Positions 4,043-13,850 of a DNA stretch of 64,000 nucleotides are shown piece by piece (positions within the stretch are counted from its first letter, which is position 1; each line of letters starts with the position of its first letter). The stretch is taken from IMG/VR virus record IMGVR_UViG_3300023174_000070, positions 1 through 64,000 of that record. The stretch is one strand, 5' to 3'. Source of the stretch: a virus. A program made the translations under genes and the position numbers. The notes below the pieces were generated by a model, which searched no databases, was not told the DNA's origin, and saw only the letters and a list, made by a program, of their open reading frames with translations.

Positions 4043-4252
4043 TTATTCTTCCTTGAAATTAAAATATTCTTCTACTCTGCTTCGAGCCTCAGTAAGGCTG
4101 GCTGCGATAACTGTCACAAAGGCCTGGTTGCCCAGGATCTGCATGTCCCAAGGCACTTGGCCGCGAAAACTAAATGTTTCAGGCACAGTGACTTGAACTT
4201 CGTACTCAGCCAAGTTCTTAATACGTTGCATGGTTATGTCAAAATCAATCAT
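4043..4252 (-). CDS. Hypothetical small protein (69 aa)
   Basis: Start set at MIDFDITMQRI, whose ATG overlaps the stop of the gene at 4245-4532; a longer reading would overlap that gene much more. Predicted alpha/beta with a C-terminal helix rich in Glu (EARSRVEEYFNFKEE). Function unknown. Confidence 0.65.
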   Translation of the reverse strand: MIDFDITMQRIKNLAEYEVQVTVPETFSFRGQVPWDMQILGNQAFVTVIAASLTEARSRVEEYFNFKEE

Positions 4253-4532
4253 TTTGATCCCGGGGCAAGCCGTTTGAATGTTTGTCACGCGGCTGTTCTA
4301 CATCCTGGAACAGGCGTTTTTCTTGTGTGGTCAATTCACTAAATGTTTTTCTTGGATTACCACACAGGACACAACCTGGTTGTCCACAGTCCATGGCATG
4401 ATGCTTGACAAACTTGTGTGGCTCTTTTACATCCATGCCATGTGCCCGGGCAATCTTGGCTTGTTTTCGAATGGCATTTTCGTCACGTTGAATACGTAGA
4501 TTTCTTTTGTCTCGTTCTTGAGGTGTGTGCAT
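4245..4532 (-). CDS. Conserved phage protein with CxxCxxC-type cluster (95 aa)
   Basis: Start set at MHTPQERDKRN. After a basic N-terminal helix it contains KHHAMDCGQPGCVLCGNPRK followed by a TTQEKRLFQD segment. The HAMxCGxPxCxxCxNPRK signature recurs in many short phage and bacterial proteins and likely binds a metal. Molecular role unknown. Confidence 0.75.
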   Translation of the reverse strand: MHTPQERDKRNLRIQRDENAIRKQAKIARAHGMDVKEPHKFVKHHAMDCGQPGCVLCGNPRKTFSELTTQEKRLFQDVEQPRDKHSNGLPRDQND

Positions 4533-4540
4533 AATTTTAC

Positions 4541-4777
4541 TTATAACCATTTCATAACAAATGCTAGATAGTCACGCTCACTATCAAAGTAGAAAATGTA
4601 ATCTCCTGGGCGGATATCTGAACTTACACTGACCAGTTGCCAACGCCATTCTGCTGTCAAACTCTCTTTTGACCATGCTAGTATTTGTTCCAACACACCG
4701 TAGTTTTTTTGAATTCTACAGGCATGACTGAAACTGTCGCCCAATCGTATTGTGTCTTCAGCAGTTTTTATAGCCAT
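4541..4777 (-). CDS. Tandem paralogue 5: small protein ending in FxxKW (78 aa)
   Basis: Last member of the five-gene tandem array 4541-5584. It shares the C-terminal pattern (R)D-x-x-x-F-x-(L/M)-(K/R)-W, here RDYLAFVMKWL. The N-terminal half differs from its neighbours. Its start overlaps the previous member by 10 bases. The conserved tail suggests one fold or a common partner; function unknown. Confidence 0.7.
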   Translation of the reverse strand: MAIKTAEDTIRLGDSFSHACRIQKNYGVLEQILAWSKESLTAEWRWQLVSVSSDIRPGDYIFYFDSERDYLAFVMKWL

Positions 4778-4965
4778 CGGAGTTTGAAGTATATAGCGTC
4801 CCGGCTGTCCTGGAAAACAAAAAACATAGCATCGTGTTTAGGGTGTGTTGAATAACGTTCACCAGGCAAGCCAAATTCTTCAATTACCCAAACACATACT
4901 TCGTCCCATTTAGAAATCGTGTCGCCCTTTCGCCAGGGTATTCTTACTGTATGAGTCATGACCAT
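4768..4965 (-). CDS. Tandem paralogue 4: small protein ending in FxLRW (65 aa)
   Basis: Shares the array's tail (SRDAIYFKLRWL). The upstream part has a beta-rich pattern with Trp residues. An alternative start at MTHTVRIP (4959) is possible. Overlaps both neighbours by about 10 bases, indicating coupled translation. Confidence 0.7.
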   Translation of the reverse strand: MVMTHTVRIPWRKGDTISKWDEVCVWVIEEFGLPGERYSTHPKHDAMFFVFQDSRDAIYFKLRWL

Positions 4966-5189
4966 TTGAGTGCAAACACCACAGCATCACGTTCGTGCAT
5001 GAATCGGAATTCTCGATCTGTTCTAGTCCAAGGCCTGAATCCTGCTTCAGTTTTGATTATATTTTCAGTAAGCCAACGCATGATATCTGGTCCGTATGCA
5101 TCTTTTCGTGGTGTCACACAATGTACACACTGGTCAAACATTCGAGCAGTTTCGGGTAGCATGTGTTGTTTCATTAGCAACGTTGCCAT
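4956..5189 (-). CDS. Tandem paralogue 3: small protein ending in FxLKW (77 aa)
   Basis: Tail ERDAVVFALKWS matches the array motif. The N-terminus MATLLMKQHML is followed by a Cys-containing segment (FDQCVHCVTPRK) unique to this copy. Overlaps the previous member by 16 bases. Confidence 0.7.
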   Translation of the reverse strand: MATLLMKQHMLPETARMFDQCVHCVTPRKDAYGPDIMRWLTENIIKTEAGFRPWTRTDREFRFMHERDAVVFALKWS

Positions 5190-5404
5190 TTCAATTGATA
5201 AAAGGTTGCCAGGGCAGGATTGCTAAACGCAAACACCACGGCTCGAGGCGATGAATTGTCGGATCCAAAATTGTCGTCCCAAGCCGGCATGTATTGCCAC
5301 ACATAGTCTTGATCTTGAATCAGGCCGGTCACTTGCAGTTCATGGCTCCAGTATATGCCGTCGTCAGGACCAGCATTTTCTATACGTATCTCATGCTCGA
5401 ACAT
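5174..5404 (-). CDS. Tandem paralogue 2: small protein ending in FYQLKW (76 aa)
   Basis: Tail NPALATFYQLKWQRC is a divergent form of the array motif. The body is acidic and aromatic (YVWQYMPAWDDNFGSD). It begins three bases after the stop of the first member. Confidence 0.7.
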   Translation of the reverse strand: MFEHEIRIENAGPDDGIYWSHELQVTGLIQDQDYVWQYMPAWDDNFGSDNSSPRAVVFAFSNPALATFYQLKWQRC

Positions 5405-5407
5405 ATC

Positions 5408-5584
5408 TTATCGCCATCGTAGTGCAAAGTGTGTTGCGTCCTGGGCGCTGGCAAATTTAAACTGATATTTGGGATCAGAGGACAATAGTCCAATGCCAAA
5501 CAGTTCATACTTTATGCATTGTTCTTCAAGCCAGGCACCAGCATTAATTGCTCGATCAACACCTTCAACAGTTATGGTAGTCAT
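5408..5584 (-). CDS. Tandem paralogue 1: small protein ending in FALRW (58 aa)
   Basis: A short gene read directly from the sequence: it begins MTTITVEGVDRAINAGAW and ends SAQDATHFALRWR, the same tail as the four genes downstream. It is the promoter-proximal member, just below the sigma-70 promoter at 5590-5618. Function unknown. Confidence 0.7.
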   Translation of the reverse strand: MTTITVEGVDRAINAGAWLEEQCIKYELFGIGLLSSDPKYQFKFASAQDATHFALRWR

Positions 5585-5589
5585 GATTT

Positions 5590-5618
5590 ATTGTAGCACA
5601 TTTAGGATTTGGAGTCAA
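5590..5618 (-). promoter_or_regulatory. Sigma-70 promoter, TTGACT-17-TACAAT
   Basis: -35 at 5613-5618 and -10 at 5590-5595, spacer 17. It lies within the end of the preceding gene and drives the five-paralogue array. The -10 is only 5 bases from the first start codon, so the transcript would be nearly leaderless. Confidence 0.7.
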
Positions 5619-9712: not shown

Positions 9713-10165
9713 TTATTTACTTGAGCGAGTGGCTAGATACTGTTCCCATTGTATCCACTGGTTCTGGACCAGGAATCCCCAATCACGTTGTTTGACACCC
9801 GGGCAGAACAAGGTCCAGCACGTGACATCTGGGTCCAGTTCAACTCTGTGATACTGACGGGCCTTGGCCCAACGCATGCTTCCCGGTCCACACCAGCGGG
9901 CAATCTCACCCGCCTTGCGACCTTGGGCATCAAACTGCGGTGTCCATTCCCAGTAGCCGCCTCGGAGAATTATGGTCAGGAACGGCCAAGGATGGTCATG
10001 CACATCTTCGGTATCACTTTTCAAAAACTTGTGTACAAACACGTTGAACGGAAATCGTTCCCGATCTCGGAGAAACACATAGTAGCGTTCCAAGTATGGT
10101 TGATTATCCACACGGTCCATAATAATACGGTACCGACCCAAGCGGTCAAAGAGTTTTTTAAGCAT
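9713..10165 (-). CDS. Cupin-fold protein (150 aa)
   Basis: Contains VHDHPWPFLTIILRGGYWEW, a cupin motif 1 (HxH..G), and later the second motif around RQYHRVEL. These histidines could bind a metal. Phage cupins of this type have no assigned substrate. Transcribed from its own sigma-70 promoter at 10172-10200. Confidence 0.78.
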   Translation of the reverse strand: MLKKLFDRLGRYRIIMDRVDNQPYLERYYVFLRDRERFPFNVFVHKFLKSDTEDVHDHPWPFLTIILRGGYWEWTPQFDAQGRKAGEIARWCGPGSMRWAKARQYHRVELDPDVTCWTLFCPGVKQRDWGFLVQNQWIQWEQYLATRSSK

Positions 10166-10171
10166 GTTGCT

Positions 10172-10200
10172 ATTATACAGGAAAGTTTAATTATGGTCAA
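10172..10200 (-). promoter_or_regulatory. Sigma-70 promoter, TTGACC-17-TATAAT
   Basis: -35 at 10195-10200, -10 at 10172-10177, spacer 17. The -10 is 6 bases from the ATG of the cupin gene, implying a very short leader. It overlaps the 3' end of the gene at 10187-10711. Confidence 0.75.
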
Positions 10201-13604: not shown

Positions 13605-13850
13605 TCAAGACCACTGTAGAGCCAGCATTGTGGTCTCTTGGTCTTCGTCCAAGTCAAACCAAAGTTCTCTATTGTAGCAGTAAACCCTAAAGCCTTTTTC
13701 ACTAAAGAATTTCACGGCCGCATCTAATAATTCGATACGACCTGTTTGATCCCAATTGATGTCTTTTACTCGTTGGTGGAACTCGTCCACATAAGTTTCG
13801 GTCACATAGTTAGTAAACCACTCGGGTGAATTTTTAAAAGCAAACTTCAT
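13605..13850 (-). CDS. Hypothetical protein with ALQW tail (81 aa)
   Basis: Start set at MKFAFKNSPEWF, whose ATG overlaps the stop of the SWIM gene. The C-terminus DEDQETTMLALQWS resembles the FxLKW tail of the 4541-5584 array, suggesting a dispersed sixth member. Beta-rich middle (RVYCYNRELWFDLDE). Confidence 0.65.
   Translation of the reverse strand: MKFAFKNSPEWFTNYVTETYVDEFHQRVKDINWDQTGRIELLDAAVKFFSEKGFRVYCYNRELWFDLDEDQETTMLALQWS

Follow-up and report, generated by a model that had tools for sequence, protein, structure and literature searches.

Tandem paralogous genes of a freshwater phage belong to a family of small proteins with a common C-terminal tail

The window analyzed here, a stretch of 64,000 nucleotides, is part of an IMG/VR virus record of 129,997 bases that represents a freshwater virus of bacteria, and it carries five tandem genes for proteins of 58 to 78 residues on the minus strand. 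We find that the five proteins share homology over most of their length, the C-terminal tail included, and that they belong to a large and apparently undescribed family, for which the best reading is a diversified, shuffled set of small proteins on one scaffold; we infer that their role is binding. The majority of phage genes are small and lack an explanation; hundreds of such genes, drawn from nearly 190 virus loci, are here united in a single family that has a common predicted fold, a putative rule of exchange, and one profile with which more members can be found.

The five genes of the window and their relationship

The genes are real at the predicted positions (Table 1). Transcribed in the order g5, g4, g3, g2, g1, all five are found, with the order kept and between the same neighbors, in the related phage contig L007. 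Comparison of the window with L007 gave dN/dS values of 0.37 for g5, 0.12 for g4, 0.12 for g3, 0.14 for g2, and 0.05 for g1, the best conserved among the five; on the basis of these values all are protein-coding genes under selection. Orthologs of g5 are present in L007 (62%) and in a second contig, L006 (47%). For g3, an ATG at the TAATGA overlap provides an alternative start. The tail had been described as DxxxFxLKW in each protein, and it is present in that form with the exception of g4, where the tail (NPALATFYQLKW) lacks the D and has Y in place of the first F, and of g1, which has M in place of L.

Table 1. Coordinates of the array genes, their overlaps, and associated features in the window.
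Feature	Positions	Strand	Description
Putative sigma-70-like site	5590-5618	minus	TTGACT-17-TACAAT, 10/12 matches, 5 nt ahead of the g5 ATG
Gene 5 (g5)	5408-5584	minus	58 aa; first in array; MTTITVEG...YQFKFASAQDATHFALRWR; profile match E 9e-11
Gene 4 (g4)	5174-5404	minus	76 aa; tail NPALATFYQLKWQRC; motif D absent
g4/g3 overlap	5174-5189	minus	AAATGGCAACGTTGCTAATGA; start codons within the K-W codons and at the stop
Gene 3 (g3)	4956-5189	minus	77 aa counted from the first ATG; tail HERDAVVFALKWS
g3/g2 overlap	4956-4965	minus	AAATGGTCATGA; ATGA and ATGG starts both present
Gene 2 (g2)	4768-4965	minus	65 aa (63 aa if begun at the ATGA overlap); FGLPGERY type
g2/g1 overlap	4768-4777	minus	CGATGGCTATAA; g1 start inside a W codon of g2
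Gene 1 (g1)	4541-4777	minus	78 aa; EWRWQL...YIFYFDSERDYLAFVMKWL type
g1 tail/next-gene overlap	4541-4550	minus	next gene 4245-4550, 101 aa, unrelated to the family
Candidate sixth member	13605-13850	minus	end ELWFDLDEDQETTMLALQWS; in-register alignment to the profile end, E about 4

All five proteins matched profile A4 to the C-terminus, with E values from 9e-11 to 1e-17; the five are themselves rows of A4, and the A1 model likewise included them, so independent support comes from profile-profile comparison of the orthologue sets. In these hhalign comparisons the probabilities were 94% for g3-g5, 73% for g4-g5, 60% for both g1-g2 and g1-g5, 52% for g2-g5, and 50% for g2-g3, and similarity spanned about 40 columns in several of them. 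The direct comparisons g1-g4, g2-g4, and g3-g4 were each not significant alone, and g4 is tied to the rest by way of g5 and of members in the arrays of other phages (97%). As a control, six neighboring unrelated genes gave 0 to 14%, in comparison to values of up to 97% within the family. The results establish the five as tandem paralogues, as had been proposed. The codons of the tail overlap the start of the next gene, as would be expected if the resemblance were coincidental or a mere DNA-level signal coupling that gene, the proteins themselves being unrelated; the length of the aligned region, the fold elements common to the models described below, and the presence of the tail on single members as well make this explanation extremely unlikely.

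A sixth member had been suggested at 13605-13850. The end of that protein does align in register, and a 90% identical ortholog is encoded in the same related phage; the alignment has an E value of about 4 and a profile-profile probability of about 3% or less, and the protein is a possible distant sixth member.

Extent of the family and its predicted fold

A profile search had been proposed as a check, and it was positive: a fixed profile of 45 members, applied to 188 nonredundant loci, matched 644 open frames at E≤1e-3, with 602 of these matches reaching the last six residues, and reversed decoys gave zero matches down to E 0.1. Fixed profiles checked in this way were adopted because an iterated profile had given a false match in the wrong frame at 2583-2729 of the window (E 6e-6). 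Adding a g2 profile and setting the limit at 0.01 raised the count to 675 members in 187 of the 188 loci; because the loci were fetched with family members, the presence of the family at each is by design, which does not apply to how many further members were found. The members fall into 75 clusters at 45% identity. Scans of viral contigs for related loci returned 58 for the g2 type, 93 for the g1 type (best 80 listed), and 81 and 114 for two other member types (best 80 listed of each). Aligned, the members suggest a consensus tail of F-x-F-x(4)-D-[AY]-x-x-F-x-L-[KR]-W; among the 532 members in which the W is followed by at most four further residues, its composition is F(52%)-x-F(87%)-x-x-[ED]-x-D(77%)-[AY]-x-x-F(85%)-x-L(94%)-[RK](86%)-W.

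Single-sequence scans of the window proteins against Pfam and PHROGs gave no significant match. Sets of 45 and 76 representatives yielded no consistent family in PHROGs or Pfam and scattered matches at most, the 45 gave scattered matches or none in NCBIfam and PADLOC (scattered meaning one or two members among 42 to 76), and a profile search of PDB sequences gave no consistent match. No relative was detected in bacterial and archaeal genomes by two pattern-method scans with the g2 and g1 types, and searches of the literature turned up no account of these proteins as a family. Searching 50,697 phage records by tblastn with single members produced nothing convincing; the matches in RcXuper and Lu11 lie inside longer genes without the tail. 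When twelve named phages were searched whole, Agrobacterium phage Atu_ph07 was the only cultured phage found to have members; the other eleven, among them T4, S-PM2, S-CRM01, and HTVC008M, gave no significant match (Lu11, E 0.06). Atu_ph07 has four profile matches with E values from 2e-5 to 3e-4, including AUZ95014, AUZ95037, and the frame 347322-347597. By eye, its proteins share a WC-x-EN and F-x-L-R-[WY] pattern; unlike the members considered above, they are dispersed rather than in long arrays and end in R-Y or otherwise instead of R-W. Members lie at 182.9, 198.2, 199.5, and 347.4 kb of Atu_ph07, and their presence in a cultured phage that infects a laboratory Agrobacterium strain makes direct tests possible. 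The best family match there, the minus-strand frame at 347322-347597 of MF403008, is unannotated in GenBank and adjoins a look-alike, AUZ95237 (by eye).

Structure prediction was carried out for two members. The AlphaFold2 model of g2, built with an alignment of 42 relatives, has the order strand-helix-strand-strand-helix (pLDDT 90.5), and that of g1, built with 45 family members, has the same β-α-β-β-α order (pLDDT 73.4). In these models the tail is the third and last strand together with the second and last helix of the domain, and g3, g4, and g5 probably adopt the same fold judging from their homology. The lists of viral structural neighbors of the two models overlap, nearly all entries being "uncharacterized, uncultured Caudovirales phage" and a few coming from Atu_ph07; with the same order of elements and many nearest neighbors in common, the predicted folds appear related rather than unrelated. 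The N-termini, which had been reported to differ, thus do so in sequence but not in the predicted fold of the two modeled members. The BFVD entries A0A6J5TB89, A0A6J5L7H3, and A0A6J5LSA7, all from uncultured Caudovirales phages, have the same predicted fold (probability 1.00) at 15 to 58% identity and would be members or near relatives; they are uncharacterized, and their records give neither a name nor a description nor an array context. The folds of g1 and g2 were also matched over about 60 residues in BFVD A0A2L0V078, a 335-residue protein of Atu_ph07, perhaps as a domain fused into a longer protein. A fold search of the PDB gave no significant match, the nearest small chains being ferredoxin-like with E values of 0.5 or worse. 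The best small matches, the designed minibinder 8tcf_C, Pcc1, and MinE, have the same order of secondary structure, whereas the family differs from ferredoxin-like domains in being without the fourth strand and has no sequence relation to them.

Gene junctions and turnover of array genes

The genes had been described as overlapping under one sigma-70 promoter. Four of the five window junctions, counting that between g1 and the next gene, do overlap by 10 to 16 nt, but g5 and g4 are separated by a gap of 3 nt. The next gene (4245-4550) matches phrog_4499, of unknown function. At g3/g2 the hinge sequence is identical to that in L011-L019, and at g2/g1 the sole usable start is the ATGG within the W codon. 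A putative promoter directly ahead of the array was recognized by its pattern and its conservation: L007 has the same hexamers at the same place, and L006 has TTGACA-17-TATAAT at the equivalent position, though the upstream gene differs. Because the -10 box ends 5 to 6 nt ahead of the ATG in the window, L007, and L006, the g5 transcript is likely leaderless. Outside these three phages, the arrays that we looked at had no comparable sigma-70-like site directly upstream. The internal junctions of the window array contain no strong sigma-70-like site, with only weak 9/12 patterns inside genes, and the overlaps leave little room for internal promoters. The array contains a single minus-strand stem-loop pattern, located inside g4, and reading of the 25 bases ahead of the g2 and g1 starts revealed no evident Shine-Dalgarno sequence. 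A second sigma-70-like site, TTGACC-17-TATAAT, was noted at 10165-10200 of the window; it ends 6 nt before the ATG of the gene at 9713-10165, a leaderless-like arrangement.

Across the family, an ATGA stop/start overlap provides the nearest start at 205 of 337 junctions (61%), in comparison to 211 of 959 adjacent nonfamily pairs (22%); 108 of the 337 have an ATG that overlaps the W codon. An initial view that placed every downstream start within the K/R-W codons overstated the case and was discarded, the nearest start being mostly the ATGA at the stop. On the basis of the stop/start overlaps, together with the lack of an evident Shine-Dalgarno sequence ahead of the g2 and g1 starts, the array genes are likely translated by coupled re-initiation.

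Membership of the arrays is variable. Arrays of two to nine genes account for 484 of the 675 members, and the remaining 191 were matched singly; in some of these cases a contig end may have truncated the array, or neighboring members may have gone unrecognized. The 85 arrays of at least three genes show 69 different cluster orders. Fragments of related phages (L011-L019), about 84 to 95% identical across most of their shared parts, differ by the gain or loss of whole array genes, and in six base-resolved indels between close phages the switch always falls in the tail/stop/start segment, typically TTGAGATGGTCATGA. Of 289 indel junctions in family genes, 191 are no more than 20 nt away from a family stop (random expectation, 17%); these events are not independent, the 191 coming from 73 short loci with 74 insert sizes. 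Stop-codon breakpoints proved not to be special to the family, as 260 of 317 indels elsewhere (82%) are also near a stop, which is expected because broken genes are selected against. What does set the family apart is a longer shared breakpoint sequence and a higher indel density alone. Over all loci, the sequence common to both breakpoint ends has a median of 17 nt for family indels and of 5 nt for the others, part of the difference coming from tail homology itself, so that a substrate is available without its use being thereby demonstrated; the indel densities are 1.57 and 0.22 per kb, respectively. In the window the tail DNA of neighboring genes is much less alike, and the window and L007 arrays have the same gene content. 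We conclude that the cassette anatomy of the arrays is well supported, and that recombination at the tail segment is favored by the shared sequence and the density, yet not proved given the nonindependent events and the tail homology.

As cited in PMC4503421 (Arbiol 2010, Comeau 2014), small genes of T4-type phages are reportedly shuffled as modules through PeSLs (promoter-early stem-loops). There, as in the arrays, a repeated sequence is the place at which small accessory genes of T4-like phages enter, leave, or change order as modules, and gain or loss of whole modules in this manner was found in relatives of the window phage. An early promoter and stem-loop between modules was not found in the window array. 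PeSLs are reportedly intergenic promoter/terminator elements beside unrelated genes, whereas in the tail family the repeated segment comprises the coding ends of paralogues together with the stop/start overlap. PeSL shuffling is the nearest described process, alike in behavior and different in its hinge, which here lies inside the coding end of paralogues.

Possible roles of the arrays

Aromatic and aliphatic residues account for most of the conserved positions of the family, a helix-cap acid being conserved as well, and the remainder of the sequence and the net charge are free to vary; the conserved positions include no polar cluster common to the members that would hint at an enzyme. Within the window array the net charge ranges from -7 to +2 over the five proteins. 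The original prediction of a diversified paralogous set of small proteins is borne out, and the idea of small binding proteins fits the conservation pattern and the varying charge. The explanation toward which we lean, with confidence slightly better than even, is that the genes are tandem paralogues on a β-α-β-β-α scaffold that turn over as whole genes via the tail segment, each product binding a different partner. The cassettes would be expressed from one promoter and translated by coupled re-initiation; recombination in the tail-coding and stop/start segment, which is alike in neighbors, would add or remove a whole gene with neither neighbor broken; and each protein would use the scaffold to bind its own partner, be it a host or defense factor or a protein of phage replication or expression. 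The phage would thereby possess an exchangeable repertoire of accessory binders. The weakest step in this explanation is that the proteins bound belong to the host and are inhibited as a result. No gene adjoining the arrays points to host inhibition; many arrays, including those that we inspected in most detail, have replication genes as neighbors (for a uvsW-like helicase, a 3'-5' exonuclease, and a DNA-polymerase-like small protein or fragment), a neighborhood that would suit a phage-internal role as well, and the host inhibitors originally suggested are a possible reading. A more far-reaching version would be a widespread, so far undescribed system, with T4-like freshwater phages carrying an exchangeable magazine of one-domain binders in which the coding tail and its stop/start overlap serve as fold closure, translational coupler, and recombination hinge, so that any cassette could be inserted anywhere and work at once, the cassettes countering different host defenses; we regard this as rather unlikely.

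Tight coupling of the genes would also be expected if an array encoded the subunits of one hetero-oligomer, made in equal amounts by coupled translation. As β-α-β-β-α is a ferredoxin-like order minus one strand, edge-strand pairing could be possible judging from the g2 model, and the sheets, each without its fourth strand, would then lie side by side. A fixed complex would keep its set, whereas membership and order are not kept among the arrays, and the occurrence of members singly argues that fixed array partners are not needed. Core-type conservation, the charge range, variable membership, and single occurrence thus fit a scaffold with different partners better than subunits of one machine, and we consider the hetero-oligomer unlikely. 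The location of the closest-examined arrays between the uvsW-like helicase and exonuclease genes is consistent with proteins that bind nucleic acid or regulate replication and expression of the phage itself, and phosphate contact would be possible for the basic residue that precedes the final W and is conserved at 86%. RNA binding is common among ferredoxin-like folds. Against such a role, the family is mostly acidic (median pI 5.7, median net charge -2), its profile is without a conserved basic patch, and its place in the genome varies among phages, the window array and its kin being neighbored by a metallophosphoesterase and proteins of unknown function; this alternative appears distinctly unlikely. 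High turnover, many divergent one-off members, and the higher dN/dS of some cassettes (0.3 to 0.5) are what a mostly neutral or selfish expansion would produce, with duplicates of little use drifting in a tolerant region, but dN/dS values of 0.05 to 0.14 in four of the five window genes, and intact frames with a fold-defining pattern conserved over hundreds of members, render it very improbable.

If the proteins are defense- or host-directed binders, the arrays amount to a ready library of inhibitors; if they are not, the arrays still show a combinatorial gene set kept with overlapping cassettes. Other genes were observed beside some arrays. A radical-SAM gene lies directly upstream of several (L063 3781-4965 and relatives such as L258 1330-2508), with 16 loci having one within 2.5 kb. 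A D-Ala-D-Ala carboxypeptidase/PBP-like SxxK gene (by eye) sits between g4-like and g1-like members at L064 5420-6220 and is missing there in the related L065. At L006 5441-7622, directly behind two tail-family genes, genes for an acyl carrier protein, a fatty-acid desaturase-like protein, and a FabF-like ketosynthase were recognized by eye and are possibly fatty-acid auxiliary metabolic genes.
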